A stretch of 64,000 nucleotides of DNA from an uncultured Lachnospiraceae bacterium (GTDB lineage Bacteria > Bacillota > Clostridia > Lachnospirales > Lachnospiraceae), in NCBI GenBank assembly GCA_902761225.1, contig CACWJQ010000001.1, positions 100,239 to 164,238 of the forward strand, written 5' to 3'. Position numbers and translations under genes: made by a program. Within the stretch, counting starts at the first letter, position 1, and each line of letters begins with the position of its first letter. Shown piece after piece: positions 8,040 to 24,194 of this stretch. The notes under the pieces were generated by a model, which ran no database searches, had not been told where the DNA came from, and saw only the letters and a program-made list of their open reading frames with translations.

Positions 8040-8061
8040 GTTTAGTATAAGGAGAAATAAT

Positions 8062-8808
8062 ATGGCACGTAGAAGAATCATTGCCGGAAACTGGAAGATG
8101 AACAAGACTCCTTCAGAAGCCGTAGCACTCTGTGCAGAGCTTAAGGACCTTGTTGTAAACGATGCTGTAGATGTTGTTTACTGCGTACCTGCCATCGATA
8201 TCGTTCCTGTTGCTGAGGCAGTTAAGGGAACTAATGTACACGTAGGTGCAGAGAACTTCTACATCGAGGACAAGGGTGCATTCACCGGCGAGATCTCAGC
8301 TCCCATGCTCAAGGAAGCAGGTGTTGAGTACGTTATCATCGGACACTCCGAGAGAAGAGATATCTTCGGAGAGAATGATATCCTCATCAATGCCAAGGTT
8401 AAGAAGGCATTCGCATCCGGACTTACTCCCATCCTCTGCTGCGGCGAGTCACTTGCACTCCGCAAGGCAGGAACCTACAAGGAGTGGATCAAGAGACAGA
8501 TCGAGTGGGATCTTACAGATGTTACCGCTGATCAGGTTAAGACTCTCGTTATCGCTTACGAGCCTATCTGGGCTATCGGAACCGGCGAGACCGCAACTGC
8601 AGATCAGGCTCAGGAAGTCTGCAAGATGATCCGTGAGACCATCGCCGAGATGTATGATGCAGCTACCGCTGAGGCAGTTCGTATCCAGTACGGCGGATCA
8701 ATGAATGCAGGTAATGCAGCTGAGCTTCTTGCCAAGGAAGACATTGACGGAGGACTTATCGGAGGCGCATCCCTTAAGCCCGACTTCGGCAAGATCGTTA
8801 ATGCATAA
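8062..8808 (+). CDS. tpiA: Triosephosphate isomerase
   Basis: Interconverts dihydroxyacetone phosphate and glyceraldehyde 3-phosphate. The 248 residues carry the N-terminal Lys motif GNWKMNK, the catalytic His in IIGHSERR, the catalytic Glu in [11 protein letters not shown] and the phosphate-binding [11 protein letters not shown] and GLIGGASL. The start ATG 8062 follows ATAAGGAGA. The frame stays open further upstream, but that extension lies inside the inverted-repeat element and is not protein-like. Third gene of the glycolytic cluster, with a strong terminator after it. Confidence 0.98.
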
Positions 8809-8828
8809 TTATGTATTGAAATGACAGG

Positions 8829-8858
8829 GCTGCTGCCGGTAAGGCAGCAGCTTTTTTT
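8829..8858 (+). terminator. Intrinsic terminator after tpiA
   Basis: GCTGCTGCC and GGCAGCAGC form a perfect 9-bp stem around GGTAA, followed by seven T. It closes the glycolytic cluster. Confidence 0.93.
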
Positions 8859-8861
8859 ATT

Positions 8862-8891
8862 TTGGCACAAGTGCCCGATTAATGGTAATAT
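8862..8891 (+). promoter_or_regulatory. Candidate promoter for the LRR lipoprotein gene
   Basis: TTGGCA and TAATAT are separated by 18 bases, immediately after the tpiA terminator and 27 bases before the start codon. Confidence 0.5.
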
Positions 8892-8918
8892 GTTCGAATA
8901 AGCTTATTTGATCGAGAT

Positions 8919-9971
8919 ATGAAAAAAACTGATCTGAAAAATAAAATACTGCGCCTTGGGATGACACTGCTCCTGGCTCTTATCATGGGCTGTTCACAGG
9001 GGGCGGGGGATGCGGACAATACGCTTCAGACAGACAGCTCCGAAAGTCAGGCACCGGATGAAGGACAGGCCGAAACCTCAGCTTCTCCGGATGATGAAAC
9101 CGCGGGATCCGAGGTCATAGAGCCGGAAATCCCGCAGCCGTCACCCGAAGATGTGGCTGATGCATGGATAAAAGAGCACGCCATATACAGGGAAGCAACA
9201 TATGTTGATATATCCCACACGGATGTAAACGGCGTTGATATAGATACCGTCATAGAAAGGCTCCCTAATCTTGAACGTCTTGTGATGATAGACTGCGGCC
9301 TTGATAATGACGGATATGCATCGCTGCAGGACAGACATCCCGATATCAAGATAGTATGGGAGATAGTACTGTCACACTGGACTATCAGGACCGATTCTGT
9401 TGCCTTCAGTACGTTCAAGACAACAGCCGATGATTTCTTCATGGAAAACGACGAGGCCTATTACCTGAAGTACTGCAATGAACTGGTGGCCCTTGATCTG
9501 GGACATAACTGGGTTTCGGATCTTTCTTTCCTTGAGTATATGCCGGAGCTCAAGATACTTATCCTGGTTGATAATGTAAAATACAAAGAGGGTGACAATT
9601 ACAGACACCTGACAGATCTGTCAGAATTACAGTATGTGCCGAAGCTCAGGTATCTGGAGATATTCGCAAATAATGTCTCTGATTTTTCATTCATGCAGTA
9701 TCTTCCGGAACTGGAGGATCTTAACATAAGCTATAATTCGGTTTCGAGCATACAGTATCTCACCGGTTTTTCCAACCTGAAAAGACTGTGGATGGAGGAG
9801 ACATACATATCATATAATAACTATGTCTATCTGACCCAGCTGTATCCGAATGCCCAGATTGTGTATTTTGGCGAAAGCTCGATAGATCAGGGCTGGCGCT
9901 CCGGTCCCAGATATTATGCGATGCGGAGAATGTTCAGGGAAAATATCATAGACGATCTGTACAGGGACTGA
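8919..9971 (+). CDS. Lipoprotein with leucine-rich repeats
   Basis: A basic, hydrophobic signal peptide ends in a lipobox-like ALIMGC at residues 21-26, so the protein is probably lipid-anchored outside the membrane. Residues 27-85 are acidic, Ser/Pro/Glu-rich and likely a flexible stalk. From about residue 95 there are leucine-rich repeat units (LERLVMIDCGL, LVALDLGHNWVSDLSFL, LRYLEIFANNVSDFSFM, LEDLNISYNSVSSIQYL), a fold used for protein binding. The 350 residues show no catalytic motif. The ribosome site is weak. A secreted adhesin or sensor role is possible, but no specific partner can be named. Confidence 0.8.
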   Translation: MKKTDLKNKILRLGMTLLLALIMGCSQGAGDADNTLQTDSSESQAPDEGQAETSASPDDETAGSEVIEPEIPQPSPEDVADAWIKEHAIYREATYVDISHTDVNGVDIDTVIERLPNLERLVMIDCGLDNDGYASLQDRHPDIKIVWEIVLSHWTIRTDSVAFSTFKTTADDFFMENDEAYYLKYCNELVALDLGHNWVSDLSFLEYMPELKILILVDNVKYKEGDNYRHLTDLSELQYVPKLRYLEIFANNVSDFSFMQYLPELEDLNISYNSVSSIQYLTGFSNLKRLWMEETYISYNNYVYLTQLYPNAQIVYFGESSIDQGWRSGPRYYAMRRMFRENIIDDLYRD

Positions 9972-10018
9972 CATCTGTCAGGCTGTGCGGACCATAAGAT
10001 AAACACGGAGGTAATATA

Positions 10019-10804
10019 ATGGCAGAACTGTGCGTTAAGTTTTTTTCCAATTGTCTTAAGAGAAATACAGAGTTTAAAATGCTGCTTCCCAACGATCCCA
10101 GACAGGATATCCCATGGGAGGAAGAAAAACACAGACCTGAGGATATGAAGACCATACTGCTTCTTCACGGATATACGGGAGATGCGGATATATGGGTGAA
10201 CAGGGAACAGGCTGCAGGCCTCAATATCGCCATTGTTGCTCCAAACGGTGAAAACGGCTTCTGGCTTGACGGAGAGGCCACAGGAAGAAAGTATGCATCC
10301 TTCGTGGGTGAAGAACTTATAGAGTATATAAGAAAGACCTTCGGTCTTGCACTTACTCCGGATAAGACAGGTGTGATGGGCCTTTCAATGGGCGGATTCG
10401 GAGCGCTTCATACCGCGCTTGCATATCCCGAAACCTTCGGATGCGCAGCAGCTCTTTCATCCGCGCTGATACATAATGAAGTGGCAAAGATGAAGGAAGG
10501 ACAGGGGAATTCCGTCGCCAATTATGAGTATTACAAGGAGTGTTTCGGTGATCCTTCAAAGCTGCAGGAAAGTGATAATAATCCCGAGTATCTTGTAAAG
10601 AAGCTCAAAGCAGAGGGAAGGAAGCTTCCTGATATCTTTATGGCGTGCGGAACAGAGGATTTTCTTCTTGAGCCCAACCGCGCGTTCCATAAGTTCCTGA
10701 CGGATGAAGGCGTGGATCATGTATATGAAGAAGCGGAGGGTATACATGACATGAACTTCTGGAGCAGATATGCAGCAATCTTTATGCCCAGGATGTTCGG
10801 CTGA
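10019..10804 (+). CDS. Esterase-D/tributyrin-esterase family hydrolase
   Basis: An alpha/beta-hydrolase of the esterase D type (tributyrin esterase EstA, S-formylglutathione hydrolase relatives). The nucleophile elbow is GLSMGG with Ser123. Near the C-terminus are an Asp in GTEDFLLEPNRAF and a His in GIHDMNFW, in the right order for the catalytic triad. The N-terminal segment LLLHGYTGDADIW carries the oxyanion-hole HG. At 261 residues it has normal family length, and there is no signal peptide, so it is cytoplasmic. The substrate is probably a short-chain or feruloyl-type ester, but the sequence does not say which. The start has GGAGGT. Confidence 0.87.
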   Translation: MAELCVKFFSNCLKRNTEFKMLLPNDPRQDIPWEEEKHRPEDMKTILLLHGYTGDADIWVNREQAAGLNIAIVAPNGENGFWLDGEATGRKYASFVGEELIEYIRKTFGLALTPDKTGVMGLSMGGFGALHTALAYPETFGCAAALSSALIHNEVAKMKEGQGNSVANYEYYKECFGDPSKLQESDNNPEYLVKKLKAEGRKLPDIFMACGTEDFLLEPNRAFHKFLTDEGVDHVYEEAEGIHDMNFWSRYAAIFMPRMFG

Positions 10805-10850
10805 AGAAATCCGTGAGGGCATGTACACAGGTGAGTGAAACCGATTTTTC

Positions 10851-10879
10851 TTGACACGGAAACTGAATATATATATAAT
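10851..10879 (+). promoter_or_regulatory. Consensus promoter upstream of the riboswitch
   Basis: TTGACA and TATAAT, both perfect, are separated by exactly 17 bases. Transcription would start about 8-10 bases before the riboswitch P1 stem. The spacer 10805-11138 is the longest gene-free stretch in the window (334 bases): it holds this promoter, the riboswitch and its terminator. The last ~90 bases hold only the flotillin ribosome site. Confidence 0.92.
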
Positions 10880-10886
10880 CTTCTCA

Positions 10887-11009
10887 AGTGAAAGGGAGTA
10901 GCCAAACGGTGGAAACTTTCCCCCGGGCTTGAGATCGTCACCCGGCACTGCGCGGAGGATTCAGCGAAACGCAGTAGCCCGTATCAAGTTAGAAGGCAAG
11001 ACTTTTACT
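10887..11009 (+). ncRNA. yybP-ykoY-type manganese riboswitch aptamer
   Basis: The leader shows conserved yybP-ykoY features in order: GAAAGGGAGTAGC at the 5' side, ATCGTCACCCGGC in the middle, and GGCAAGACTTTTAC at the 3' side. P1 would pair AGTGAAAG (10887-10894) with CTTTTACT (11002-11009). The same 3' strand is also the left arm of the terminator at 10999-11044, so aptamer and terminator exclude each other. The family senses Mn2+ and, when bound, usually turns expression on. Here it sits in front of a flotillin gene instead of the usual manganese exporter. Confidence 0.87.
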
Positions 11010-11044
11010 GTAACTTTAAAGGTTGCGGTAAAGGTCTTTTTTTT
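10999..11044 (+). terminator. Riboswitch expression-platform terminator
   Basis: AGACTTTTACTGTAAC and GTTGCGGTAAAGGTCT form a 16-bp stem (three G-U pairs) followed by eight T. Its left arm overlaps the P1 3' strand of the riboswitch. Confidence 0.9.
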
Positions 11045-11138
11045 AGCAAAAGATACGAACCGCATCCCAAATGATCAAGGGACCGGAAAGCCAGACCGGA
11101 ACCTGTTGCCGGATGATCCGGCGGAAAGAGAGGAGAAA

Positions 11139-12647
11139 ATGGACGATTATATTGGCGCAATCATTGTCGGAGGAATAATCCTGATCCTGTTGATCATCAT
11201 ATTCATTACCGGCTACGTGAAGGCTTCAACCGATGAGGCATTCATCATCACAGGTCTTCACAAGGAACCCAGGTATCTGATCGGACGTGCCGGGATCAAG
11301 ATCCCTTTCTTCGAAAAGAAAGACGTTCTTAAACTCCAGCTGATCCCTATCGATGTCAAGACCAGTTCCGCAGTTCCCACCGCAGACTACATCAACATCA
11401 TGGTTGATGCTACGGTAAACGTTCAGATCGGTCATACCCCTGACCTGATCAAGAAGGCATCCAAGAACTTCCTGAACAAGAAGCCCGAGTATATCGCAGC
11501 TGTGGCAAGAGAAGTACTTGAAGGTAATGTCCGTGAGATCGTAGGTAAGATGCATCTTGAGGAGATGGTCTCAGACCGTCAGAAGTTCGCAACTCTTGTA
11601 AAGGAAAATGCCGATCCCGATCTTGAGGCTATGGGACTTGTTATCACCAGCTTCAATGTTCAGAATTTCGTTGATGACAATCATGTGATCGAGAACCTCG
11701 GTGTTGATAACGTTGTACGTATCCAGAAGGCAGCAGCCATCTCCAGAGCAGAGTCCGAAAGAGATATAAAGATCGCTCAGGCACAGGCTGACAAGGCTGC
11801 TAATGATGAGCAGGTAAAGGCACAGACCGAGATTGCTACCAAGCAGAACGAACTGGCTATCAAGCAGTCAGAACTGAAGCAGGAAGCTGATACCAAGCAG
11901 GCTGTTGCGGATGCAGCTTATGAGATCCAGCAGCAGGAACAGAGAAAGACCATCGAGGTCACAAGAGCAAATGCAGACATTGCACGTCAGGAAAGAGAGA
12001 CAGAGCTTAAGCAGCGTGAAGCTGATGTTCGTGAGCAGGTCCTCAATGCTGAAGTCAGAAAGAAAGCAGATGCAGAGAAGTATCGTCGTTCACAGGAAGC
12101 AGATGCTGCACTGATCGAGAGACAGCGTGAAGCAGATGCACGTAAGTATGAGCAGGAGAAGGCTGCAGAAGCTGTCAAGGCTCAGGCAGATGCAAGCATT
12201 TATGCCAAGGAGAAGGAAGCAGCCGGTATCGCGGCAGTAGGACGCGCAGAGGCTGAAGCTATCCAGGCAAAGGGTCTTGCAGAGGCTGAGGCAATGGAGA
12301 AGAAGGCAGAAGCATACGCTAAGTACAACAATGCCGCTATCACCGAGATGATCATCAAGCAGCTGCCTGCTATCGCCAAGGAAGTTGCAGCTCCCATCGC
12401 AGCCATCGAGAAGGTTACCGTTATCGATTCCGGCAGCGGAGATTCAGGCGTTGCAAGTGTCGGCGGATATACTCCTGCAGTTATGGCCAAGGTCATTGAG
12501 GCTGTTAAGGAGACCACAGGCTTCGATCTTATGGATGTCATGAAGGCTCAGACATATGATGCCAAGGTCAACAAGAACATCAATGTCACAGGTCTTGATA
12601 CCCAGATCGTCAGGGAAGCTGCCAACACAGTTAAAGACGATGAGTGA
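11139..12647 (+). CDS. Flotillin-like SPFH membrane scaffold protein
   Basis: The 502-residue protein starts at ATG 11139 behind AGAGGAGA. One N-terminal hydrophobic segment (GAIIVGGIILILLIIIFITG) anchors it. An SPFH/band-7 domain follows (about residues 30-200; VKASTDEAFIITG, VMVDATVNVQI-type strands, LEAMGLVITSFNVQNF). Then comes a long Ala/Glu/Lys/Gln-rich coiled coil (about 215-395) with repeated EA/KAEA units, and a C-terminal oligomerisation region. This is the layout of flotillins (FloT/YqiK), which organise membrane microdomains. Control by a Mn2+ riboswitch is unusual for the family and suggests a role in metal or envelope stress. The usual small NfeD partner is not adjacent. Confidence 0.93.
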   Translation: MDDYIGAIIVGGIILILLIIIFITGYVKASTDEAFIITGLHKEPRYLIGRAGIKIPFFEKKDVLKLQLIPIDVKTSSAVPTADYINIMVDATVNVQIGHTPDLIKKASKNFLNKKPEYIAAVAREVLEGNVREIVGKMHLEEMVSDRQKFATLVKENADPDLEAMGLVITSFNVQNFVDDNHVIENLGVDNVVRIQKAAAISRAESERDIKIAQAQADKAANDEQVKAQTEIATKQNELAIKQSELKQEADTKQAVADAAYEIQQQEQRKTIEVTRANADIARQERETELKQREADVREQVLNAEVRKKADAEKYRRSQEADAALIERQREADARKYEQEKAAEAVKAQADASIYAKEKEAAGIAAVGRAEAEAIQAKGLAEAEAMEKKAEAYAKYNNAAITEMIIKQLPAIAKEVAAPIAAIEKVTVIDSGSGDSGVASVGGYTPAVMAKVIEAVKETTGFDLMDVMKAQTYDAKVNKNINVTGLDTQIVREAANTVKDDE

Positions 12648-12695
12648 CCGGATTTAAGATCTTAATTTTCTTTTTGGGCGGGTAGGATAACTTTT

Positions 12696-12728
12696 ACACC
12701 GGACAGGGCAATCCTGTCCGGTGTTTTT
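12696..12728 (+). terminator. Intrinsic terminator after the flotillin gene
   Basis: ACACCGGACAGG and CCTGTCCGGTGT form a perfect 12-bp stem around GCAAT, followed by a T-run. Confidence 0.95.
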
Positions 12729-12846
12729 CATATAGTGTTAAAAAAGCATCTTTTCTTGCTGATATCACATGGCAAAGGGTATGTGTAAAGTCATTTTGTG
12801 CTAATATATCCGGTGTATCAACTCAGAAGGAATACCGGTCATATCC

Positions 12847-14256
12847 ATGAATAAGCTTTATAAGAACGATCCAGCATTTTATAGAAAAGTATTTGCCATT
12901 ACTCTGCCCATCGCTCTTCAGAGTCTGATCACCATCGGTGTCAATATGCTTGATACCATCATGGTGGGAAGCCTTGGAGACGATGCTCTTTCAGCTACAT
13001 CTCTGGCGAATTCCTTTATCACCGTTTATCACATTTTCTGTATGGGGCTCGGTATGGGAGCTTCGGTTCTTGTGTCCAGATACTGGGGTATGAAGAAGGC
13101 AGCAGAAGAATGCGGAGATGTAAGCGGCGGTGAAAAAGCGGTACATGCCCTTAAACAGACCGTGGCGCTTATGCTCAGGATCACTCTGGGACTTGCAGCA
13201 TGTTTTGCCATGGCAACCCTGCTTGCACCGGGCTTCATAATGAAGATGTATACAGAAGAAAGCGCAATACTGGATCTTGGCGTTACATATCTTACTTTTT
13301 CCGTGATCACTTACTTTTTCCTTGGCTCATCCCTTGTCTGTACGATCGTGCTGAGAAGTGTCGGACAGGTAAGGCTTCCGCTCTACGTATCCATAGGAGC
13401 ATTCTTCGTAAATCTGTCTGCCAATTATATACTCATATTCGGGAAACTGGGTGCGCCCGCACTCGGTGTTGCCGGTGCCGCTCTTGGAACTCTTGCCGCC
13501 AGAGCCTTCGAAGCACTTGTCATCTGCGGCTATTTTCTTGTAACCGATAAGAGGATCGGATTCAGGGTAAGGGATCTTGCCATGAATACCCGCAGGATAA
13601 TCGCCGAGTATTTCAGGGTGAGCATACCCGTTCTTATCAGTGACGGGATCCTTGCCATAGGAAGCAATACCGTTGCCATGGTCATAGGGCACCTTGGAGG
13701 CGCTTTTGCATCCGCCAATGCCATAACCGCGGTAACCCAGCAGCTGAGTTCCGTTGTGATCACAGGAGCCAGTCAGGCCGGAGCCATCGTAACCGGTCAG
13801 ACCCTGGGAGAGGGCGACAGGGCAAAGACCATGGAACAGGGATATATGTTCTTCGGACTTGGGCTGTTTCTCGGCGCGATATCGGCGGCTTTCATCATGC
13901 TGTCCAGTGATCTTATAATCTCAACTTACAAAAATGTCAGCGATGAGGCTGTAAATATAGCCCATGATCTCATGCTTGCCATAAGTATCATAATCATTTT
14001 CCAGGGTACCAACAGTATCATGACCAAAGGTGTGCTGCGCGGAGGCGGTGATACCAGGATGCTGATGCTTACGGATAACATCTTTTTGTGGGTGCTTGCC
14101 ATCCCCTTGGGACTGCTTGGGGGATTTGTGCTTAAAATGTCCCCTTTCTGGATCTATATCTTTCTTAAATCCGACCAGATAGTTAAGACTGTATGGGCTT
14201 ACCTCAGGCTTCGCAGCGGTAAGTGGATCAAGAAGATATCTACCGGAAGAAATTGA
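12847..14256 (+). CDS. MATE-family multidrug/cation efflux transporter
   Basis: MATE proteins export drugs or organic cations using a Na+ or H+ gradient. The 469 residues are strongly hydrophobic with about 12 predicted membrane helices. Two MatE halves are visible: an N-terminal half with LPIALQSLITIGVNMLDTIMVG and SLANSFITVYHIFCMGLGMG, and a C-terminal half beginning near IPVLISDGILAIGSNTVAMVIG. Length and the internal duplication fit the family. It lies downstream of the flotillin terminator and is probably a separate unit; no clear promoter was found. The gene ends 33 bases before the HD-GYP gene. The substrate cannot be told. Confidence 0.92.
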   Translation: MNKLYKNDPAFYRKVFAITLPIALQSLITIGVNMLDTIMVGSLGDDALSATSLANSFITVYHIFCMGLGMGASVLVSRYWGMKKAAEECGDVSGGEKAVHALKQTVALMLRITLGLAACFAMATLLAPGFIMKMYTEESAILDLGVTYLTFSVITYFFLGSSLVCTIVLRSVGQVRLPLYVSIGAFFVNLSANYILIFGKLGAPALGVAGAALGTLAARAFEALVICGYFLVTDKRIGFRVRDLAMNTRRIIAEYFRVSIPVLISDGILAIGSNTVAMVIGHLGGAFASANAITAVTQQLSSVVITGASQAGAIVTGQTLGEGDRAKTMEQGYMFFGLGLFLGAISAAFIMLSSDLIISTYKNVSDEAVNIAHDLMLAISIIIIFQGTNSIMTKGVLRGGGDTRMLMLTDNIFLWVLAIPLGLLGGFVLKMSPFWIYIFLKSDQIVKTVWAYLRLRSGKWIKKISTGRN

Positions 14257-14289
14257 TATATTTTCCCGTATCGTATACAATAACTATGT

Positions 14290-17200
14290 ATGGGAAAATC
14301 TGATATAACAAAACAGATAATGAGGCCGGTAACGACGATGCTCATTGTTTTTTTCTGCATCCTCGTTAACTTTCTCGGGAAGCATTTTGCTGTTAAGAAT
14401 GAGCTTCCTTTGTGGCTTGATTCCTTTGGAACGGTATTTGCTGCGTATGTACTTGGTCCCATAAGCGGTGCCATAGTAGGGTGTGCCGGCAATATCATCT
14501 ATTATTTCTGGGATGCTTCGTCCCTTGCATATGCTTTTACCAGTATCTTTATAGGTCTGTTCCTGGGCATCTTTGCCAGGAGGAAATACTTCGAGACATT
14601 CTTTGGAGCTACATCCGTTGCGGGATGGGTAACCATCGGCTCTGTTACGATCTCAACCTTCATTAACCTGATACTGTATGATGGATATACCGGCAATGTA
14701 TGGGGTGACGGTATAATAGACTATTTTGTCTTAAAGGGTGCACCGCATCTGCTGGCTATAGTGTGCGGAGAAATGTATCTTGATTTCCTTGATAAGCTGG
14801 TGACGGTCCTTGCCATGTTTTTCCTTGTCAAGCTTGTCAGAAGCATCAGGAAGGATGTCAAGGAAAATACCGATGAGGATTGTGTTGACCCCAGGATCGT
14901 ATTCCTGCTCATTGCCACGCTGGGAGCCGGTCTTCTTGCACCGATGGCACCGGTAAAGGCTGCAGGCAATGAGGTCACATATATCCAGCGTATTTATGAT
15001 GCAGACAACGGATTATTATGCGGACATGCCAATGATATCGTACAGACTCATGACGGTATCCTGTGGGTTGGAAGTTATTCCGGTCTCTACCGCTACAACG
15101 GAACCACCTTCCGTTTTATGGATGAATTTCCCGGTGTCAAGAACGTCAACTGTCTTTATGTCGATGAAGAGGGAAGACTCTGGATCGGCACCAATGACAG
15201 CGGCATTTTTATCGTTATAGGCAATAAGATCGTCAATGTGCTGGATTCTTCCAACGGCCTTCCTTCCGATTCCGTAAGGAACATAACCCAGAGTTCCGAT
15301 GGTGATTACTATATAGGAACTTCGGATCACATGGCCATTGTCCGGCTCAAAAACGGTATAAGCGTGGCATCCGAGCTCCCTGAGGTGGGATATACACAGA
15401 GCATCTCCGCCGACAGAAAAGGAAATGTCGCGGTGGTAAGTGCTGACGGCAGATTATTCATACTGAAGGATGGCGCCATAGTATCCGTCTCAACATCACC
15501 CGAGAGCGGAACTGCCTATTCTTCGTGTACTTTTTCATCTGACGGAAAGTTGTATGTGGGAACTACCGACGGAAGGATTTTCATCTATTTCATTCAGAAC
15601 GGCGAACCTAAGAAGGATAAATCCATAATCTGTTACGGGATCTCTGAGATCAATCAGATTTATTTTAATGATGACAGTATCTGGGTTCTTGCAGATAACG
15701 GACTGGGAGAGATCAGAGGATATTCCTTCACGAAGATCTCCACTGGGGATTTCAATTCTTCCATCGAAAGAATGTGCATCGATTACCAGGGCAATCTCTG
15801 GTTCGCTTCGACAAGACACGGTCTGCTCCAGCTGACCCCTTCTTCTTTTTCCGATGTTTTTATCAGGCACGGTCTCGATCCTGTTGTTGTCAACACTACA
15901 TGTGTGTGGAACAGGCTTCTTTACATCGGAACAGACAGCGGTATCAGGGTCATAAGACTTTCCGACGGAGCGGTATTGGAGGATGATCTGACGGAACTTA
16001 CTGACGGAGTCCGTATCAGGTGTATTACTGATGATTCGAAGGGCAATCTCTGGGTATGCAGTTACGGAAAAGGTCTCATCAGGGTGACTTCTTCCGGTGA
16101 TATAAAATGCTACGATACAGAGACTTACGGAATAGGCAACAGATCCAGAGTCTGTCTGGAAATGTCGGACGGAACCATCGCTGTCAGTGCGGATACCGGA
16201 CTTTCACTGATCTCAGGTGATGATACGGTGAGGACCATTCCCTACGGAGAAGAACTGGGATCCTCCCAGATACTCTCAATGTGCGAGTATTCGGATGGAA
16301 AGCTGTACCTTGGAACTGACGGTAACGGGATAGTGATCCTTGAAAATGGGAAGATATCCGGTCACATTACCAAAACGGATGGTCTCGGATCCGGAGTTAT
16401 CCTCAGGATGGTATATGACGAAGAGACGGATTCTGTCTTTATCGTTACCAGCAACAGTCTCTGCCTGATGGATCATGATGGTCCTCATACGATCACCAAT
16501 TTCCCTTATTCCAATAACTATGACCTTGTGATAGATGATGACGGCGAGGTATTCGTGCTGGGAAGCGCCGGAATCTATGTGTGTGATAAGAGTGAACTTA
16601 TCTCGAACATTGTCAATATGGACTGTTATCTGCTCAATTCCAGAATGGGACTGAGGGGATCCCTTACGGCCAACTCATGGAATGAACTGACTGCAAAGGG
16701 TGATCTGTATCTGTCCACTGACAGAGGAGTGATTGAGTTCAACATCGATGATTACAGACCTGAGAAATGCACTTACAGGATCATGGTAAGCGAGGTAAGG
16801 CTTGACGGTGTTCCCATAACTATTGAAAGAGGCAATAATCTTGTGGTGAGCACCGATGTTACCACCATCGAATTTGTTGCGGAGATAGTCAATTATACTC
16901 TCGATAATCCCAAGGTTTCATATTATCTTGAGGGAGTGGACAACGAGTATAAGACAGTATACCAGAGTGACCTGGGCAGCGCGGTTTATACCAACCTTCC
17001 TGCGGGGGAATACAGGTTCCACCTTGCGATACTTGATGAGGATACAGATGCTGTTCTGGAAGAGAGCACATATGGTTTTGTCAAGGAAAAGGCCATTTAT
17101 GACAATGACTGGTTCTTATTCTATGTGCTTTTTGTGGGAGGACTATTCATCGGATGGTTCACCTGGTTCCTTACAAGGCTGGCACTTCAGAAGAATATCA

Positions 17201-17850
17201 ATTCACAGCAGGAAAAGCTTGCCATGGCCCTCAAACAGGTGCAGATGGGAAATGAGACCATTATGGCTATCGCACGTACCGTTGACGCGAAGGATTCCAT
17301 GACAAGTGAGCATTCTGAGAGGGTTTCGGAGTATTCAGTCCTTATCGCCGAGAATTACGGCTTTACCAAAGAGGAGACTGAGAATCTCAGAAAAGCCGCT
17401 CTTTTGCATGACATAGGCAAGATAGGTATTCCCGATAAGATACTGAACAAGCCGGAAAGGCTTACTGACAAGGAATATGAGATCATGAAGAGCCATGTCA
17501 CCATGGGGGCCGAGATACTCAAGGGCTTTACTCTCGTGGAAAATGCGGATCTTGGTGCCAAGTACCATCATGAGAAATATGACGGTACAGGATATCCCGA
17601 CGGCCTTAAGGGAATAGACATTCCTCTGTACGGAAGGATAATCGCCATAGCAGACGCTTTTGATGCCATGACTGCAAACCGTGTGTACAGAAAGCGTATG
17701 CCGTTTTCACAGGTCATGAGTGAACTTAAGAATAACAGAGGCAAGCAGTTCGATCCGGAGCTTCTTGATGTATTTATCAATCTCATTGATGAAGGAAAAA
17801 TAGATATTGATGCCCTCTATGCGGATGCAAAAGGAGGTGACGGACAGTGA
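14290..17850 (+). CDS. ECF-S-like / beta-propeller / HD-GYP membrane signalling protein
   Basis: A 1186-residue fusion. Residues 1-195 are about six membrane segments resembling an ECF-transporter S component (LDSFGTVFAAYVLGPISGAIVGCAGN). Residues about 226-840 are two-component-regulator propeller blades (ILWVGSYSGLYRYNG, RLWIGTNDSGIF, NLWVCSYGKGLI, KLYLGTDGNGIVI), likely outside. Residues about 860-935 look like a Y_Y_Y domain, then one membrane segment (about 941-966). The cytoplasmic end is an HD-GYP domain (about 990-1160) with HDIGK (His1040-Asp1041), HHE (1093-1095) and DGTGYP, so it is probably an active c-di-GMP phosphodiesterase. It overlaps the BMP-type gene by four bases (GTGA), implying a joint sensor. 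The ligand is unknown. Confidence 0.88.
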   Translation: MGKSDITKQIMRPVTTMLIVFFCILVNFLGKHFAVKNELPLWLDSFGTVFAAYVLGPISGAIVGCAGNIIYYFWDASSLAYAFTSIFIGLFLGIFARRKYFETFFGATSVAGWVTIGSVTISTFINLILYDGYTGNVWGDGIIDYFVLKGAPHLLAIVCGEMYLDFLDKLVTVLAMFFLVKLVRSIRKDVKENTDEDCVDPRIVFLLIATLGAGLLAPMAPVKAAGNEVTYIQRIYDADNGLLCGHANDIVQTHDGILWVGSYSGLYRYNGTTFRFMDEFPGVKNVNCLYVDEEGRLWIGTNDSGIFIVIGNKIVNVLDSSNGLPSDSVRNITQSSDGDYYIGTSDHMAIVRLKNGISVASELPEVGYTQSISADRKGNVAVVSADGRLFILKDGAIVSVSTSPESGTAYSSCTFSSDGKLYVGTTDGRIFIYFIQNGEPKKDKSIICYGISEINQIYFNDDSIWVLADNGLGEIRGYSFTKISTGDFNSSIERMCIDYQGNLWFASTRHGLLQLTPSSFSDVFIRHGLDPVVVNTTCVWNRLLYIGTDSGIRVIRLSDGAVLEDDLTELTDGVRIRCITDDSKGNLWVCSYGKGLIRVTSSGDIKCYDTETYGIGNRSRVCLEMSDGTIAVSADTGLSLISGDDTVRTIPYGEELGSSQILSMCEYSDGKLYLGTDGNGIVILENGKISGHITKTDGLGSGVILRMVYDEETDSVFIVTSNSLCLMDHDGPHTITNFPYSNNYDLVIDDDGEVFVLGSAGIYVCDKSELISNIVNMDCYLLNSRMGLRGSLTANSWNELTAKGDLYLSTDRGVIEFNIDDYRPEKCTYRIMVSEVRLDGVPITIERGNNLVVSTDVTTIEFVAEIVNYTLDNPKVSYYLEGVDNEYKTVYQSDLGSAVYTNLPAGEYRFHLAILDEDTDAVLEESTYGFVKEKAIYDNDWFLFYVLFVGGLFIGWFTWFLTRLALQKNINSQQEKLAMALKQVQMGNETIMAIARTVDAKDSMTSEHSERVSEYSVLIAENYGFTKEETENLRKAALLHDIGKIGIPDKILNKPERLTDKEYEIMKSHVTMGAEILKGFTLVENADLGAKYHHEKYDGTGYPDGLKGIDIPLYGRIIAIADAFDAMTANRVYRKRMPFSQVMSELKNNRGKQFDPELLDVFINLIDEGKIDIDALYADAKGGDGQ

Positions 17851-19055
17851 AGGGAGAAAGAAAACTGATCGTCTGGGTCCTGATCGCCGCTATGATCAGT
17901 ATCTATGCGCTGTATATGTACCGGTATATGGATGCCTGGGTTGGCACAACCGGCAAGGTTATCACCGTGGGTATCGTGCTTGACGGTGATGAGAGCACTC
18001 CCTACAGCGGCAATTTCATCAGAGCCATGGAATCACTGAAAGTGGAGTACGGCGATTCCGTAAGGATAATACAGCGCAGTAATGTTCCCTATGAAGAGGT
18101 GGACGCTGTGCTGAGGGACCTTATAAACAGAGGCTGTGACATTATCTTTACCAACAGCTACGGATACAGTTTTACCGTCAAGGATATTGCTGCGGAGTTC
18201 CCGTCCGTGCAGTTCTGTCAGGCTACCGGAGACAATGCTGATGACGATCCCGTGCTTGGCAATTACCACACTTTCATGGGCTCCATATATCAGGGAAGAT
18301 ATATAGCCGGACTTGTGGCGGGACTCAAGATGCAGGAGCTCATCAATTCCGGTATCATAGCTCCGGATGAAGCAATCATCGGATATGTGGGAGCTTATCC
18401 CTATCCCGAGGTTATCTCCGGATACACCGCGTTCTTCCTGGGTGCGAGACAGAATTGTCCAACTGCTGTCATGAGAGTCAGATATTCCTATACATGGACC
18501 AGTTATATGAAGGAAAAGGAACTTGCAGAACAGCTGATCGATGAGGGGTGCGTGGTGATATCACAGCATTCCGATACCATTGGTCCTGCGGTAAGCTGTG
18601 AGAATGCAAGGACTGATCATCCTGTTTTCCATGTGGGATATAATCAGGATATGATCGATGTTGCTCCCACCACATCACTCATAGGAACCAGGATCAACTG
18701 GACACCATATATCGTTCAGGCTGTCAAGGCTGTTATGAACGATCAGAAGATAGAGAATGTGGTAATGGGCAATGTCCATGTGATGGATGTGGGCGCCGGC
18801 TTCGACAGGGGCTGGGTCGAGATGCTTGAACTCAATCCTGCCATAGCTCCAAACGGAGCCCAGGAAGTGATCGACAGGACCATAGAAGATATGGCCAGGG
18901 GTAACTGCCATGTATTCCACGGCAATTATATCGGAGTCAATCCGGATGACCCTTCGGATACATGGAACCTTAATGTGGAGTATATCGAGAACAGTTCTTC
19001 ATCTGCTCCCACTTTTTATTATATCCTTCAGGATGTGATCACTATCGAGGAATGA
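17847..19055 (+). CDS. Membrane-anchored BMP/PnrA-type substrate-binding protein
   Basis: The basic-membrane-protein fold of nucleoside-binding lipoproteins is visible: VITVGIVLDGDE, RGCDIIFTNSYGYS, the EFPSVQFCQATGD strand, GSIYQGRYIAGLVAG and GYVGAYPYPEVISGY. The N-terminus (VWVLIAAMISIYALYMY) is a membrane anchor without a lipobox Cys, unlike transporter-linked relatives. The start is GTG at 17847, four bases inside the HD-GYP gene and behind AAAGGAGGTGA, so the two are tightly coupled. No ABC permease or ATPase genes are near, which favours a sensory over a transport role. The ligand is possibly a nucleoside or similar; this is inference. Confidence 0.85.
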   Translation: MKGERKLIVWVLIAAMISIYALYMYRYMDAWVGTTGKVITVGIVLDGDESTPYSGNFIRAMESLKVEYGDSVRIIQRSNVPYEEVDAVLRDLINRGCDIIFTNSYGYSFTVKDIAAEFPSVQFCQATGDNADDDPVLGNYHTFMGSIYQGRYIAGLVAGLKMQELINSGIIAPDEAIIGYVGAYPYPEVISGYTAFFLGARQNCPTAVMRVRYSYTWTSYMKEKELAEQLIDEGCVVISQHSDTIGPAVSCENARTDHPVFHVGYNQDMIDVAPTTSLIGTRINWTPYIVQAVKAVMNDQKIENVVMGNVHVMDVGAGFDRGWVEMLELNPAIAPNGAQEVIDRTIEDMARGNCHVFHGNYIGVNPDDPSDTWNLNVEYIENSSSSAPTFYYILQDVITIEE

Positions 19056-19112
19056 TGTATGTAAATGACATGTGCAGAACACATGTTAATATATTTCAAA
19101 TGGAGGGACGTT

Positions 19113-20375
19113 ATGATCTACAAGTGTAAAAACTGCGGCGGTGATATGGAATTTGATCCTTCGATCGGAAAGATGAAATGTCCGTTCTGCGATTCAACCG
19201 AATCCGAAGAGGTAAGCACCGGTTCGGAGATAAAGGATGGGGATGTGGCTACCGAGGAGACAGCCCAGGAACTCGGATATTCCGCTGCCGGCAATCTTCT
19301 CTGTCCCAACTGCGGATGTGAGATAGAACTTGGAAAGTTCACCTCAGCACTCAGATGTCCTGCATGTGATTCCAATATCATAGTCGATTCAAGAATGAAG
19401 GGTGAATACAGACCCGAGTTCATGACTCCTTTTAAGATCGATGAGAAGAAAGCGAAGGAAATGATAAAGCAGAAATTTGCTACATTTAAGTTCGCACCCA
19501 GAGATCTTGTCAGTGAAGCAAGACTGAAGAAGATCCAGGGATGGTACATGCCTACCTGGTTCTATGACATGGATACGACCCTCGATTACAGGGCAGTCGG
19601 AATAAAGGAGACCAGACATACCGAAGGTAACACCGAGGTTACGGATATAGATTCCTATGACGTGAACCGTGTCATAGATGCGAGATTTGGCAGACTTCCT
19701 GTTGATGCGGCCAATGATCTTCCGGATGAGATGATGGATCTGCTCGCTCCCTTTGATACAAGGGAATCAGTTCCTTATGATTCCAGATACATGTCGGGAT
19801 TCTATTCGGAGCAGTATAACCAGACCTCTGCAGAGCTTCTCCCCAGAGCCGAGAAGCAGGTTGAGACCTTCGGAAGGAGCATGTGTCAGGATTCTGCCAA
19901 GAAGGGACCCCAGGGAACCTATGACCGTCATTCCAATGAGCAGATGAATGTGCAGTATCATTCCGTGATACCTCATTACGGACTTATGCCCGTCTGGAAA
20001 TATGACTATACATACAAGGATCAGCCCTATCCCTTCTACATAAACGGACAGACCGGAAAACTGGTTGGAACCGCTCCCGTGGATTCAAAGAGAGTCTGGA
20101 GCTTTGCAGCGATAGTCGGCGCAGTTGCAATGGCTGTTGCGATAGGACTTTCCTTCCTGATCGATTATCCGTGGATCGTGGGTGCTGTCATAGGTATCAT
20201 CATCGGTCTGATCACAGGATTTGCAAATCTGCATCCTGCAGCAGGCAAGGTTACGGTTAATGCCGCAACATACGTGGCTCAGGAAAACCGTAATCTCAGG
20301 ATTGCCACCGATGGTTATATGGGCAGAGAGACAAAGACAAGACAGCTTAACAATAATAATGTTAACAAGAAATAA
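19113..20375 (+). CDS. Zinc-ribbon protein with C-terminal membrane hairpin
   Basis: The 420-residue protein begins at ATG 19113 behind TGGAGGG. Two N-terminal ribbons are visible: YKCKNCGGDMEF...CPFCDS (residues 3-27) and LLCPNCGCEIEL...CPACDS (about 68-92). A central ~220-residue domain contains MTPFKIDEKKAKEMIKQKF and IQGWYMPTWFYDM. Two membrane segments lie near residues 328-366 (WSFAAIVGAVAMAVAIGLSF, IVGAVIGIIIGLITGF), with a short basic tail. This layout occurs in uncharacterised Firmicute proteins; I know no function. It follows the BMP gene by 57 bases and may be co-transcribed. Confidence 0.75.
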   Translation: MIYKCKNCGGDMEFDPSIGKMKCPFCDSTESEEVSTGSEIKDGDVATEETAQELGYSAAGNLLCPNCGCEIELGKFTSALRCPACDSNIIVDSRMKGEYRPEFMTPFKIDEKKAKEMIKQKFATFKFAPRDLVSEARLKKIQGWYMPTWFYDMDTTLDYRAVGIKETRHTEGNTEVTDIDSYDVNRVIDARFGRLPVDAANDLPDEMMDLLAPFDTRESVPYDSRYMSGFYSEQYNQTSAELLPRAEKQVETFGRSMCQDSAKKGPQGTYDRHSNEQMNVQYHSVIPHYGLMPVWKYDYTYKDQPYPFYINGQTGKLVGTAPVDSKRVWSFAAIVGAVAMAVAIGLSFLIDYPWIVGAVIGIIIGLITGFANLHPAAGKVTVNAATYVAQENRNLRIATDGYMGRETKTRQLNNNNVNKK

Positions 20376-20398
20376 CCGGATTATAAGGAGACTATGCA

Positions 20399-21835
20399 AT
20401 GCAGCTTGAGAAAGCGTTAAAAAAGATCGGAGATCACAATCCCTGTATGACCTGGAGATTCGGAGCAGATCCCTGGGCGCTTGTATATGACGGACGTGTA
20501 TATCTGTACATGACTGCCGATTCCATCGAAAAAGACGATGAAGGTAATGTGCTTACCAATACATATTCCAAGATAAACAGGCTCAATGTCATCTCTTCCG
20601 CAGACCTTGTAAACTGGACTGACCATGGATACATCAAGGCGGCAGGAAGCGATGGAGAAGCTAAGTGGGGAGGCAATTCATGGGCTCCCGCAGCGGCTTA
20701 CAAAAAGATAGACGGTAAGGATAAGTTCTTCCTGTACTTTGCAAACAGCGGAAACGGGATTGCGGTTCTTGAAGCCGATTCTCCCACAGGTCCGTTCAGG
20801 GATCCCATCGGAAAGGCACTGATCTCCAGAGACACACCTAACTGTGATTCCGTGACATGGCTCTTTGATCCCGCGGTACTTACCGATGATGACGGCAATT
20901 CGTATCTGTATGTCGGAGGAGGTGTGCCTTCTCCCGATAAGGCATCCGATCCCGGTACTGCGAGAATGGTCAAGCTCGGTGACGACATGATCAGTCTTGA
21001 CGGAGATCCCATGCCCATAGAAGGAGTAAGATTCCTGTTCGAGGATTCCGGCATCAACCGTATCGGAGATAAATATTATTATTCATATTGCTCCAATTTC
21101 AGCATGACTGAGGATGATGTTAAGGAGCAGGGATTCGAAAACGGTGAGATCATCACCATGGAATCCGATAAGCCTCTCGGGCCCTTTAAGTTCAGAAAGG
21201 GAGTTCTCAAGAATCCCGGAGCATTCTTCGGACAGGGCGGCAATAACCACCACTGCATGTTCGAATTCAAGGGAAAATTCTATGTTGCATATCATGCGAG
21301 GATACTCGAAGAGGCAATGGGGATTGACGGAGGATACCGCAGCACCAATATAGATTTCATGGGAATAGACTCTGACGGCGGCCCCGCAGTTGCAAAGGGT
21401 ACAAGAGGAGGCGCAGAGCAGGTTGGAAGACTTGATCCCTATTCCAGGGTAAGTGCCGTAACCATGGGAAATGCTGCAGGAATAGAGACGATAAGCCTTG
21501 CAGACAAGGATGGAAATGCACCTGATGTAACCTCCGGAGAGATGATCCTGACCGGTATCCATTCGGGAAGCTGGACAGGGGTTGTGGGAGCTGATTTCGG
21601 AGACAGGTCACCCTCCGAGATAGTATACGAAGCCTGCGGAAACGGCAGGATGAGCGTATCTGTAAGGTGCGGCAGTCCTGAAGGAGAGGAAATCGCCAGA
21701 CTGGACATCGAGTCATCCGGAAGCGATATCAGAGAGTTCGCCGCTCCGGTAACTGCCGGGATCTTAGGTGTTAAGGATATCTATTTTATTTTTGACGGCG
21801 AAGGTGTAAGCGCTGTTTCCTGGATGTTCAGATAA
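20399..21835 (+). CDS. Glycoside hydrolase family 43 (arabinosidase/xylosidase type)
   Basis: GH43 enzymes remove arabinose or xylose from hemicellulose. The N-terminal five-bladed propeller is recognisable: NPCMTWRFGADPWALVYDGRVY holds the catalytic-base Asp region, TWLFDPAVLTDDDG the middle acidic site, and FEDSGINRIGDKYYYSYC the catalytic Glu strand. HHCMFEFKGKFYVAYHARIL follows. The last ~110 residues (SGEMILTGIHSGSWTGVVGADFG onward) resemble a CBM6-type sugar-binding module. There is no signal peptide, so it probably acts on imported oligosaccharides. The start at 20399 has AAGGAG seven bases upstream; the ATG at 20394 is out of frame. Its presence fits a plant-fibre-degrading gut organism. 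Confidence 0.9.
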   Translation: MQLEKALKKIGDHNPCMTWRFGADPWALVYDGRVYLYMTADSIEKDDEGNVLTNTYSKINRLNVISSADLVNWTDHGYIKAAGSDGEAKWGGNSWAPAAAYKKIDGKDKFFLYFANSGNGIAVLEADSPTGPFRDPIGKALISRDTPNCDSVTWLFDPAVLTDDDGNSYLYVGGGVPSPDKASDPGTARMVKLGDDMISLDGDPMPIEGVRFLFEDSGINRIGDKYYYSYCSNFSMTEDDVKEQGFENGEIITMESDKPLGPFKFRKGVLKNPGAFFGQGGNNHHCMFEFKGKFYVAYHARILEEAMGIDGGYRSTNIDFMGIDSDGGPAVAKGTRGGAEQVGRLDPYSRVSAVTMGNAAGIETISLADKDGNAPDVTSGEMILTGIHSGSWTGVVGADFGDRSPSEIVYEACGNGRMSVSVRCGSPEGEEIARLDIESSGSDIREFAAPVTAGILGVKDIYFIFDGEGVSAVSWMFR

Positions 21836-21860
21836 GTTCTGTGGATTATATAAAAATTCA

Positions 21861-21889
21861 TTGACAAACAGGGATAAAATAGTTATATT
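21861..21889 (+). promoter_or_regulatory. Promoter of rpsT
   Basis: TTGACA and TATATT are separated by 17 bases, giving a transcript with a ~110-base structured leader. Confidence 0.85.
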
Positions 21890-21906
21890 AGCAAAGTGTG
21901 TGATGT

Positions 21907-21957
21907 TTTAGCGTGCGTGTCTCGCATAAATGCATCCCGTCAATGCATCCGGCTAAA
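21907..21957 (+). promoter_or_regulatory. Structured rpsT leader, candidate S20 autoregulatory site
   Basis: An outer stem pairs TTTAGC (21907-21912) with GCTAAA (21952-21957). Inside, ATGCAT repeats on both sides of CCCGTCA form a second hairpin. There is no T-run. Position and shape fit a ribosomal-protein leader that could bind S20. Confidence 0.5.
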
Positions 21958-22006
21958 GTCACCAGTACGTTAATTTCTATTGTTTATAATATTTGGAGGT
22001 GTTACT

Positions 22007-22270
22007 TTGGCTAACATTAAGTCTGCAAAGAAGAGAGTACTTGTTGATCGCAGGAATGAAGAGAGAAACAAGGCTATCCGTTCTTCCGCAAAGACAGCTA
22101 TTAAGAAGGTTTATACCGCTGTTGAGAACGGTGATAAGAACGCTGCTGAAGCTGAGCTTAAGAATGCTAGCAAGACTCTTGAGATGGCTGCTTCCAAGGG
22201 AGTTTATCACAAGAATAACGTTGCTAACAAGACTTCTAAGATGGCTAAGGCTGTTAACAAGATGGCATAA
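22007..22270 (+). CDS. rpsT: 30S ribosomal protein S20
   Basis: Binds 16S rRNA early in 30S assembly. After the initiator the sequence is ANIKSAKKRVLVDRRNEERN, the classic S20 N-terminus, and it ends KTSKMAKAVNKMA; at 87 residues it is full length. The start is a TTG at 22007 behind GGAGGTGTTAC. TTG or other weak starts are known for rpsT in other bacteria and fit autogenous control. It is a single-gene unit with its own promoter, leader and terminator. Confidence 0.97.
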   Translation: MANIKSAKKRVLVDRRNEERNKAIRSSAKTAIKKVYTAVENGDKNAAEAELKNASKTLEMAASKGVYHKNNVANKTSKMAKAVNKMA

Positions 22271-22288
22271 TGGCAAGATGATCAATGA

Positions 22289-22319
22289 GAAACCCCGGGA
22301 TTTTTTCCGGGGTTTTTTT
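22289..22319 (+). terminator. Intrinsic terminator after rpsT
   Basis: AAACCCCGG and CCGGGGTTT form a perfect stem, followed by a T-run. Confidence 0.93.
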
Positions 22320-22385
22320 ATTTTAACTTTAATGTTAGAATCTTGAAGGTATTTATTTTGTAAACAGGATTAATCAGAGGATCAC

Positions 22386-24194
22386 ATGGATAAGAGTCTC
22401 ATCAGGAATTTTTGCATAGTTGCGCATATCGACCACGGCAAGTCCACCCTGGCTGACAGGATCATTGAAAAAACAGGACTGCTCACCGCCAGGGAAATGC
22501 AGGAACAGGTCCTTGACAATATGGACCTTGAGCGTGAGAGGGGCATTACGATAAAGTCACAGGCTGTACGTACGGTATATAAGGCTAATGACGGTAAGGA
22601 ATATATCTTTAACCTGATCGATACCCCGGGACATGTCGACTTTAATTATGAGGTTTCCAGAAGCCTTGCAGCATGCGACGGCGCCATACTTGTGGTTGAT
22701 GCGGCGCAGGGTGTGGAGGCTCAGACCCTTGCCAATGTATATCTGGCACTTGATCACAATCTGGATGTTTTCCCTGTGATCAATAAGATCGATCTTCCAA
22801 GCGCAGAGCCTCAGAGGGTGAAGGATGAGATAGAGGATGTCATAGGCATAGAGGCACAGGATGCACCGCTTATCTCGGCCAAGGACGGGATAGGTATTGA
22901 TGAAGTGCTTGAAGCCGTGGTAAACAGGATCCCGGCTCCTTCAGGCGATGAGAATGCTCCTCTTTCAGCGCTCATATTCGATTCCCTCTATGATTCCTAT
23001 AAGGGTGTCATTGTATTTGTCCGCGTTATGAACGGTACGGTCAAAAAGGGTACAAGGATCAGGATGATGGCCACCGGTGCTTCGGAGGAAGTGGTGGAGG
23101 TAGGGTATTTTGGTGCGGGAAGGTTCATCCCGTGTGATGAGCTGAGTGCCGGAATGGTTGGATATATCACCGCCTCCATAAAGACGCTTTCCGAGACGGA
23201 GGTCGGCGATACCGTAACCGATGCGGACAATCCCTGCAGCGAACCGTTGCCCGGATATAAGAAGGTACAGCCTGTTGTCTATTGCGGTGTGTATCCTGCG
23301 GACAGTGCAAAATATGAAGACCTTAAGGAGGCACTTGAAAAGCTCCAGCTCAATGATGCATCGCTTTTCTATGAGCCGGAAACATCACTTGCCCTGGGCT
23401 TCGGTTTCAGATGCGGATTCCTGGGACTTCTTCATCTGGATATAATCCAGGAGAGACTGGAGAGGGAATACGATCTTGATCTTGTGACCACTGCGCCTTC
23501 GGTTGTCTATAAGGTCTACAAGACTGACGGTACGGTAATAGATCTTACCAATCCTTCAAACCTTCCCGATCCCAGCGAGATAGAGTATATGGAAGAGCCC
23601 ATAGTCAACGCCGAGATCATGGTCACGAAGGATTTTGTGGGCTCCATAATGGAGCTGTGCCAGCAGCGCCGCGGACGTTATATCAGCATGGAATATATCG
23701 AGGCAGGAAGGGCTCTCATAAAGTATGAGCTTCCCCTCAATGAGATAATCTACGATTTCTTCGATGCTCTCAAGTCCAGATCAAGAGGATACGCGTCCTT
23801 TGATTATGACCTTAAGGGATATGAGAAGAGTTCTCTTGTTAAGCTCGATATCCTTATCAATAAGGAGCAGGTCGATGCGCTGAGCTTTATCGTCCATTCC
23901 GATTCTGCCTATGAAAGAGGCAGGAGAATGTGCGAGAAGCTTAAGGATGAGATCCCGAGACATCTGTTTGAGATACCTATCCAGGCATGTGTGGGGGGCA
24001 GGGTAATAGCCCGTGAAACGGTAAAGGCTATGAGGAAGGATGTCCTTGCGAAGTGTTACGGCGGTGATATTACCCGTAAGAAGAAGCTTCTTGAGAAACA
24101 GAAAGAGGGAAAGAAGCGCATGAGGCAGGTGGGAAGTGTTGAGATCCCTCAGTCCGCATTCATGAGCGTTCTCAAGCTCGATGATGATAACTGA
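22386..24194 (+). CDS. lepA: Elongation factor 4 (LepA) back-translocating GTPase
   Basis: A ribosome-associated GTPase of the EF-G class. G1 is [14 protein letters not shown]2/G3 include [13 protein letters not shown] and [16 protein letters not shown], and G4 is NKIDLPSA. The LepA-specific C-terminus is present ([16 protein letters not shown]). At 602 residues it is full length and lacks EF-G domain IV. The common Firmicute order rpsT-(gpr)-lepA-hemW is kept here without gpr. The spacer to hemW is short, so they are likely one operon. Confidence 0.98.

Follow-up and report, generated by a model that had tools for sequence, protein, structure and literature searches.

Within a stretch of 64,000 nucleotides from an uncultured Lachnospiraceae bacterium (contig CACWJQ010000001.1, positions 100,239 to 164,238), which as a whole is termed the window in the following, two adjacent genes encode a large membrane receptor (gene 1) and a membrane-anchored binding protein of the BMP/PnrA type (gene 2). 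Both open reading frames, as given in a preliminary description of the locus, were confirmed (Table 1), and the four-base overlap of the two genes (GTGA at 17847-17850, gene 2 starting with GTG) as well as the strong ribosome-binding site AAAGGAGGTG, which lies within gene 1 and serves gene 2, were reproduced from the sequence. The pair apparently constitutes a real, conserved and hitherto undescribed two-gene receptor, which extends the binding-protein-assisted type of sensing that is coupled to cyclic diguanosine monophosphate (c-di-GMP).

Table 1. Features of the two-gene locus in window coordinates (aa, amino acids; TM, transmembrane).
Feature	Position	Strand	Basis
Gene 1, receptor, 1186 aa: S-component-like membrane domain, propeller, Y_Y_Y, TM helix, HD-GYP	14290..17850	+	
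S-component-like membrane domain, ~aa 15-190	14332..14859	+	NF045596 9.5e-17 (below cut-off); 41-43% identity to stand-alone S components L120-L122
Extra TM helix, ~aa 201-225, leads outside	14890..14964	+	sequence; model helix 201-215, low confidence there
Extracellular propeller and Y_Y_Y region, ~aa 226-930	14965..17079	+	Reg_prop, Y_Y_Y; Foldseek to sensor regions of BT3049, BT4673, BT4663
TM helix, ~aa 937-965	17098..17184	+	sequence; model helix 940-985, low confidence there
HD-GYP phosphodiesterase domain (predicted), ~aa 985-1175	17242..17814	+	HD_5 1e-39; motif residues; alignment with 5z7c and 4mcw
Ribosome-binding site of gene 2, AAAGGAGGTG	17830..17839	+	sequence
Gene 2, membrane-anchored BMP/PnrA-type binding protein, 402 aa	17847..19055	+	Pfam Bmp; N-terminal helix, no lipobox
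BMP ligand-binding domain, ~aa 38-360; pocket S104, E188, W217, H241, D243	17958..18926	+	
Promoter-like site (10/12)	14253..14281	+	weak: promoter-like sites as many as in shuffles
Terminator-like stem directly 3' of gene 2	19066..19088	+	weak: 6 terminator-like sites versus 3.6

The combination of a propeller, a Y_Y_Y domain and an HD-GYP domain, which the preliminary description had assigned to gene 1, is borne out by Pfam matches above the cut-off to Reg_prop (2.6e-25), Y_Y_Y (3.7e-8) and HD_5 (1e-39), and no histidine kinase domain was found in the Pfam scan. The membrane part yielded weak Pfam matches below the cut-off, namely 5TM-5TMR_LYT (0.0012) and ECF_trnsprt (0.019). Judged from the structure model and the sequence, the chain is likely to run from the S-like membrane domain via a helix outward into the propeller and via a second helix back to an HD-GYP domain inside the cell. 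Foldseek searches matched the propeller region to the sensor parts of BT3049, BT4673 and BT4663, hybrid two-component sensors of Bacteroides that share the Reg_prop propeller and Y_Y_Y architecture; in contrast to these, gene 1 carries an HD-GYP domain instead of a kinase, an S-like domain at its N-terminus and a binding protein as partner. More distant relatives with the same S-like domain and propeller feature other outputs, comprising HD-GYP-receiver (L116), GGDEF (L117) and, in the case of L114, indeed a kinase (histidine kinase-receiver-Hpt). No BMP matches were present around these relatives in the stretches fetched, nor any binding proteins among ten neighbours scanned with Pfam; 20 stretches surrounding a selection of the receptor matches were examined. 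This shared chassis, with other outputs and no BMP neighbour seen, offers a comparison of what the partner adds.

The pair recurs in gut and rumen Lachnospiraceae. Among 250 genomes of the family, BMP proteins were detected at E 1e-20 or better in 98 and the close kind (E 1e-118 or better) in 19, while a set of 397 family genomes contained 30 with the close kind, distributed over 27 of 334 genera. The search of 295 genomes of the order gave six matches at E 1e-80, one of them (G513) from another family, and 348 genomes of the phylum gave only two at the paired level, both from the same family, plus three further matches at 38-40% identity (L165-L167), so that an occurrence of the pair outside the order gained no support at this level. 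Six loci from a genome collection are assigned to Lachnospiraceae (3), Clostridia (2) and Agathobacter (1). Directly upstream of the close BMP gene and on the same strand, the C-terminal end of the receptor was found in 35 of 35 distinct loci having upstream sequence, for which 38 loci had been reduced by L012 (same contig as L009), L008 (99.9% identical to L007) and L025 (contig end); in L131 just the end of the HD-GYP domain is visible. The BMP proteins of the loci in this count are at least 46% identical to that of the window, and full-length receptors are available for the window, L005, L006, L009, L011, L041-L052, L054-L057 and L145-L147. The preliminary description had known the pair from this locus only; its recurrence in genomes of the family, the order and the phylum rules out a one-off pairing.

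Viewed from the receptor, the BMP gene adjoins 19 of 22 close receptors (at least 39% identity), a count that leaves aside the fragmentary receptor of a contig of 3160 bases (G151, L130). In one further genome (G112), receptor and BMP gene are located on two contig ends, and the remaining two are considered below. One of the 19 is a second copy in the window's own genome (contig C17; L005 3621-8495), in which the receptor gene is intact and the BMP gene is interrupted, its two parts lying in different reading frames, which may reflect decay, an assembly error or a programmed frameshift. A collection of 381 plasmid records gave as best match a BMP protein from Selenomonas, 35% identical, with no receptor annotated nearby; this gene (plasmid pSRC2; L004 8001-9185) also has no ABC transporter annotated in its vicinity and no lipobox match.

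When presence of the BMP partner is mapped onto a phylogeny of 34 receptors, 2 changes are required as compared to 8.8 in shuffles, none of 500 being as low. We read the two changes as one basal gain in the clade and one loss in the common ancestor of L111 and L112. The tree derives from a quick search with support values of the Shimodaira-Hasegawa-like approximate likelihood ratio test only (86 for L111 with L112), and L055 is long-branched. Moreover, receptor and BMP distances correlate over 23 pairs (r 0.81-0.83, a level reached in 0 of 2000 permutations), which is consistent with the two proteins being inherited together but does not prove that they touch. Shared synteny of a larger region was ruled out, given that among 94 neighbouring genes at 22 paired loci the largest related group spans just 3 loci.

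The gene 2 product matches Pfam Bmp (7.2e-26; 91.3 bits against a cut-off of 24.1), and its N-terminal helix without a lipobox agrees with the earlier proposal of a BMP domain on a membrane anchor. Its closest solved sequences are 3s99 and AtzT (6pi5), and a Foldseek search with the structure model, whose mean predicted local distance difference test (pLDDT) score is 80.6, placed AtzT first, followed by 3s99, 4p98, guanosine-bound Lbp, BmpD, the ComK activator 2hqb, riboflavin-bound RfuA and PnrA. According to the accessible part of the study on AtzT (PMC6834077), guanine is contacted in this protein by Tyr45, Ser97, the backbone of Phe98, Glu165, Trp194, Asn218 and Asn220, and 3s99 carries a modelled adenine. 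By counting along the alignment, Ser97, Glu165 and Trp194 fall on S104, E188 and W217 of gene 2, Asn218 and Asn220 are replaced by H241 and D243, as in 3s99, and Tyr45 presumably corresponds to Y53. Among 27 paired BMPs, E188 and W217 are present in all, H241 and D243 in 26 each, S104 in 21 and Y53 in 26, the remaining one being truncated, while 22 other BMPs possess all six pocket residues without exception. Since the pocket residues of AtzT and 3s99 are kept in paired BMPs as well as in their ABC-linked relatives, the paired proteins probably share the purine-base type of pocket with these relatives. A ligand pocket in the BMP protein had been set beforehand as a test of the preliminary description, and recognisable purine pocket residues were found, supported by the alignments and the work on AtzT; its suggestion of a nucleoside as ligand stood as far as a recognisable pocket is concerned, but the closest solved pockets hold purine bases and not nucleosides.

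AtzT, 3s99, BmpD and PnrA thus have fold and purine pocket in common with the gene 2 protein, which differs from them by a transmembrane tether in place of a lipid anchor and by a receptor as partner in place of an ATP-binding cassette (ABC) transporter. A lipobox occurs in 19 of the 22 other BMPs, whereas the N-termini of the paired proteins form a plain helix and none was counted: a strict pattern matched 3 of 27 paired and 19 of 22 other proteins, the three being one stretch within the folded domain and hence discounted, and a loose pattern matched 9 of 27 and 17 of 22, respectively. This set of 22 takes in L004, L076, L079 and L080, which have no adjoining ABC ATPase-like gene, and leaves out L059 and L066. 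Regarding gene neighbourhoods, in 19 of the 23 loci with distant BMPs (L058-L080) the next open reading frame downstream measures 507-552 aa and contains both Walker A and a signature motif, in L063 this frame is truncated but has Walker A, and no adjoining ABC ATPase-like frame was found in L076, L079 and L080, nor in L004. On the contrary, none of 24 paired loci scanned has an adjoining frame of ABC ATPase size with Walker A; L011 contains a 237-aa neighbour with Walker A and without LSGG, L045 a 187-aa ABC-like fragment at the distal end of the sequence scanned, and the sequence of L041 stops after the BMP gene. This test covered the ATPase, and the permeases of the comparison loci were judged from size. 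In the window itself, the statement that no ABC transporter lies nearby held, as no open reading frame with Walker A and LSGG occurs at 10001-24000. An ordinary ABC transporter fragment is unlikely given the neighbour scan and the absent lipobox.

The resemblance of the receptor's membrane domain to S components of energy-coupling factor (ECF) transporters proved stronger than stated in the preliminary description. The domain matches the NCBIfam model of the CD3073 ECF S component (NF045596) at 9.5e-17 with 61.2 bits, below the cut-off of 180, which is likewise missed by the stand-alone relatives L120-L122 (86-96 bits). Free-standing proteins of ~200 aa match the S-like domain with 41% identity in the search with gene 1 and 41-43% in a local comparison. 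Nine such loci were assembled, consisting of L120-L122, which are mutually at least 78% identical so that the nine are not all independent, and six more from 299 genomes of the phylum (L148-L153); a tenth with stops (G236) was excluded. ECF ATPase genes adjoin the S gene in all nine, a nucleoside phosphorylase gene (PNP_UDP_1) in five (L120, L121, L148, L152 and L153) and, in L152 and L153, a nucleoside hydrolase gene too. Because of these adjoining nucleoside genes, it is suggested that the nine stand-alone S components serve nucleoside uptake. In their own right, the CD3073-like S components of L120-L122 and L148-L153 represent a candidate family of ECF nucleoside transporters.

The S signature of N27, G30, P40, D44, G47, T48, P57, N68, D168 and K169 is kept in 25-26 of 26 receptors, and in the alignment the receptors retain the motif around LPLWLDSxGT in addition to N68, D168 and K169. 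Two residues of the first TM helix (TM1), which in S components contacts EcfT, behave differently: P21 is present in 9/9 and G25 in 8/9 stand-alone S components, and both in none of the 26 receptors. Hence, while sharing signature residues and 41-43% identity with the CD3073 family, the receptor domain is set apart by being embedded in a receptor, by having no adjoining ECF module and by the loss of the TM1 residues. By sequence comparison, the domain probably descends from a nucleoside-type ECF S component, and its coupling to the ECF motor seems to have been lost.

As for the output, gene 1 contains the HD and HHExxDGxGYP motifs, and the HD, Lys, His, HH and Asp positions common to the solved enzymes 4mcw and 5z7c are all present. 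H1008, H1040, D1041, K1044, H1069, H1093, H1094 and D1122 do not vary among the 30 receptors aligned. Because the best solved matches, 4mcw and 5z7c, a phosphodiesterase of 3'3'-cyclic GMP-AMP, are nearly tied, c-di-GMP is the likely rather than the certain substrate. The genome of the window comprises 36 GGDEF matches, 35 of them over the cut-off, two apparently being pieces of one broken gene.

The closest known case is NspS-MbaA of Vibrio cholerae, also found in Sinorhizobium meliloti, where, according to the accessible portions of the literature, a binding protein with no part in transport informs a membrane-bound c-di-GMP enzyme of a small molecule outside the cell. NspS-MbaA responds to a polyamine, and MbaA has a GGDEF-EAL output. 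By comparison, the pair described here combines a BMP-family protein, a propeller, an S-component-like domain and HD-GYP, with no GGDEF-EAL output found, and its binding-protein gene adjoins the receptor gene in 35 of 35 checkable loci. By analogy, the pair is proposed to work like NspS-MbaA while being built from unrelated parts. Another BMP-fold protein named as a regulator and not a transporter, the Med/ComK activator (2hqb), is distant from gene 2 (phmmer 1.5e-4), and we know of no receptor partner of this kind for it. No description of the pair was found among the matches listed in the literature searched, whose coverage was thin for preprints and subscription papers and in which not all searches were aimed at it; within that coverage, the earlier remark that no system with exactly this pair is described still holds. 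Receptor activation by binding proteins, c-di-GMP phosphodiesterases included, is treated as an accepted principle in the accessible part of one review (PMC9602780). In that of another, on c-di-GMP sensing, SBP_bac_3 is the only one of 27 families of the periplasmic-binding-protein clan studied in c-di-GMP networks, and the words nucleoside, purine, propeller and NspS are absent from the text available (PMC8846402).

Taken together, we consider it on balance probable that the two genes form one signalling receptor for an extracellular purine base or nucleoside, and not a transporter. The preliminary suggestion that an extracellular ligand bound by the BMP protein is read out as c-di-GMP hydrolysis is supported in this respect. 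This view builds on what the sequences reveal, i.e. the domains, the gene overlap, the recurrence, the pocket and signature residues, the missing lipobox and the lost TM1 residues, and we infer from it the ligand class, the docking, the direction of the response and c-di-GMP as substrate. Purines or nucleosides are suggested, with good support, as the sensed class because two separate lines agree, the BMP pocket and the nucleoside genes beside the relatives of the S domain. In the proposed mechanism, the BMP protein, held by its tether at the outside of the membrane, would close on an extracellular purine base or nucleoside and, once loaded, dock on the receptor, with the propeller as the most likely site. 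The resulting change would travel via the Y_Y_Y domain and the next TM helix to the HD-GYP domain, whose activity would rise while c-di-GMP falls, this direction being a guess; the S-like domain of the receptor may bind the same kind of ligand. If this holds true, c-di-GMP sensing gains the BMP family, purines or nucleosides outside the cell as a cue, and a sensor domain derived from an ECF S component, along with the sharp prediction of a purine acting via the named pocket.

Several observations weigh against such a receptor. The structure model of gene 1 is of low confidence (pLDDT 68.7) and served for fold hints only. The Glu preceding the first metal His of 4mcw, an enzyme of the trinuclear type in which this Glu is a metal ligand, corresponds to Met1004 in gene 1. 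Furthermore, neither phosphorylase nor hydrolase genes are among the genes inspected beside the S components of L122, L149, L150 (short contig) and L151. Further points of this kind concern the partner and its ligand and are taken up with the alternatives below.

A more elaborate arrangement, to which we attach a tentative possibility, involves two purine or nucleoside sites in series: an S component turned sensor, to which the BMP protein would hand the ligand along the propeller and whose occupancy, without transport, would be reported to the HD-GYP domain. To our knowledge, ECF transporters do not use binding proteins; if true, this arrangement would provide an S component partnered by a binding protein and a c-di-GMP readout of extracellular purines.

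It appears unlikely that the receptor acts alone via its S-like domain and propeller, with the BMP protein as an accessory that, for instance, modulates it by competing for the ligand or by concentrating it. The receptor alone may be functional given the two close receptors of G009 and G248, whose genomes lack a BMP gene (no match at E 0.001), and the distant receptors of the same S-like domain and propeller, with no binding protein among their scanned neighbours, point the same way. Against this, 35 of 35 checked loci preserve the order of the two genes and their overlap-like spacing, and the two BMP-less receptors are placed inside the BMP clade, which is best read as one loss.

Rather improbable is also the same architecture with another ligand, such as a vitamin, a sugar or another small molecule, in place of a purine or nucleoside. 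The BMP fold houses a riboflavin binder (4iil), a thymidine binder is reported in the accessible part of PMC13325309, and nearly all Bmp members of the model bacteria in one review are predicted sugar binders in the portion available (PMC9602780). In addition, a two-residue gap at the pocket serine occurs in 6 of the 27 paired BMPs, forming a subclade (L052, L054, L056, L057, L146 and L147) whose ligand specificity may have changed. Opposed to this are the match of the pocket residues with AtzT (guanine) and 3s99 (adenine modelled) and the nucleoside enzyme genes adjoining the relatives of the S domain.

A remaining role of the BMP protein in import, be it for an ABC transporter whose genes lie elsewhere or for an ECF motor that uses the S-like domain, with uptake coupled to signalling by the pairing, is very unlikely: pair-bearing genomes G083, G150 and G233 do have a BMP gene in an ABC operon as well (L072, L066 and L075), and binding proteins with dual roles are described in the accessible part of PMC9602780, but the paired loci scanned are devoid of an adjoining ABC ATPase, the paired BMPs have no lipobox, the window's genome yields no BMP matches beyond gene 2 and both pieces of the C17 copy, and P21 and G25 of the transport members are absent from the receptors.

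With respect to further elements, the search for RNA control elements in the window with Rfam returned a single tRNA, which is distant from the pair. In L111, a gene at 8001-10064 beside the BMP-less receptor encodes a fusion of an isopropylmalate synthase-like part (HMGL-like, LeuA_dimer) with a DNA-binding domain of the AraC type. Near the pair, the window encodes a flotillin/Band 7 protein (10929-12647); L006 and L009 have a close relative of it immediately upstream of their pairs, a synteny limited to near kin. Finally, contig C51 of the window's genome (L128 1132-9001) harbours a cluster of a 737-aa HD-GYP protein, a 1421-aa propeller protein and another HD-GYP protein.

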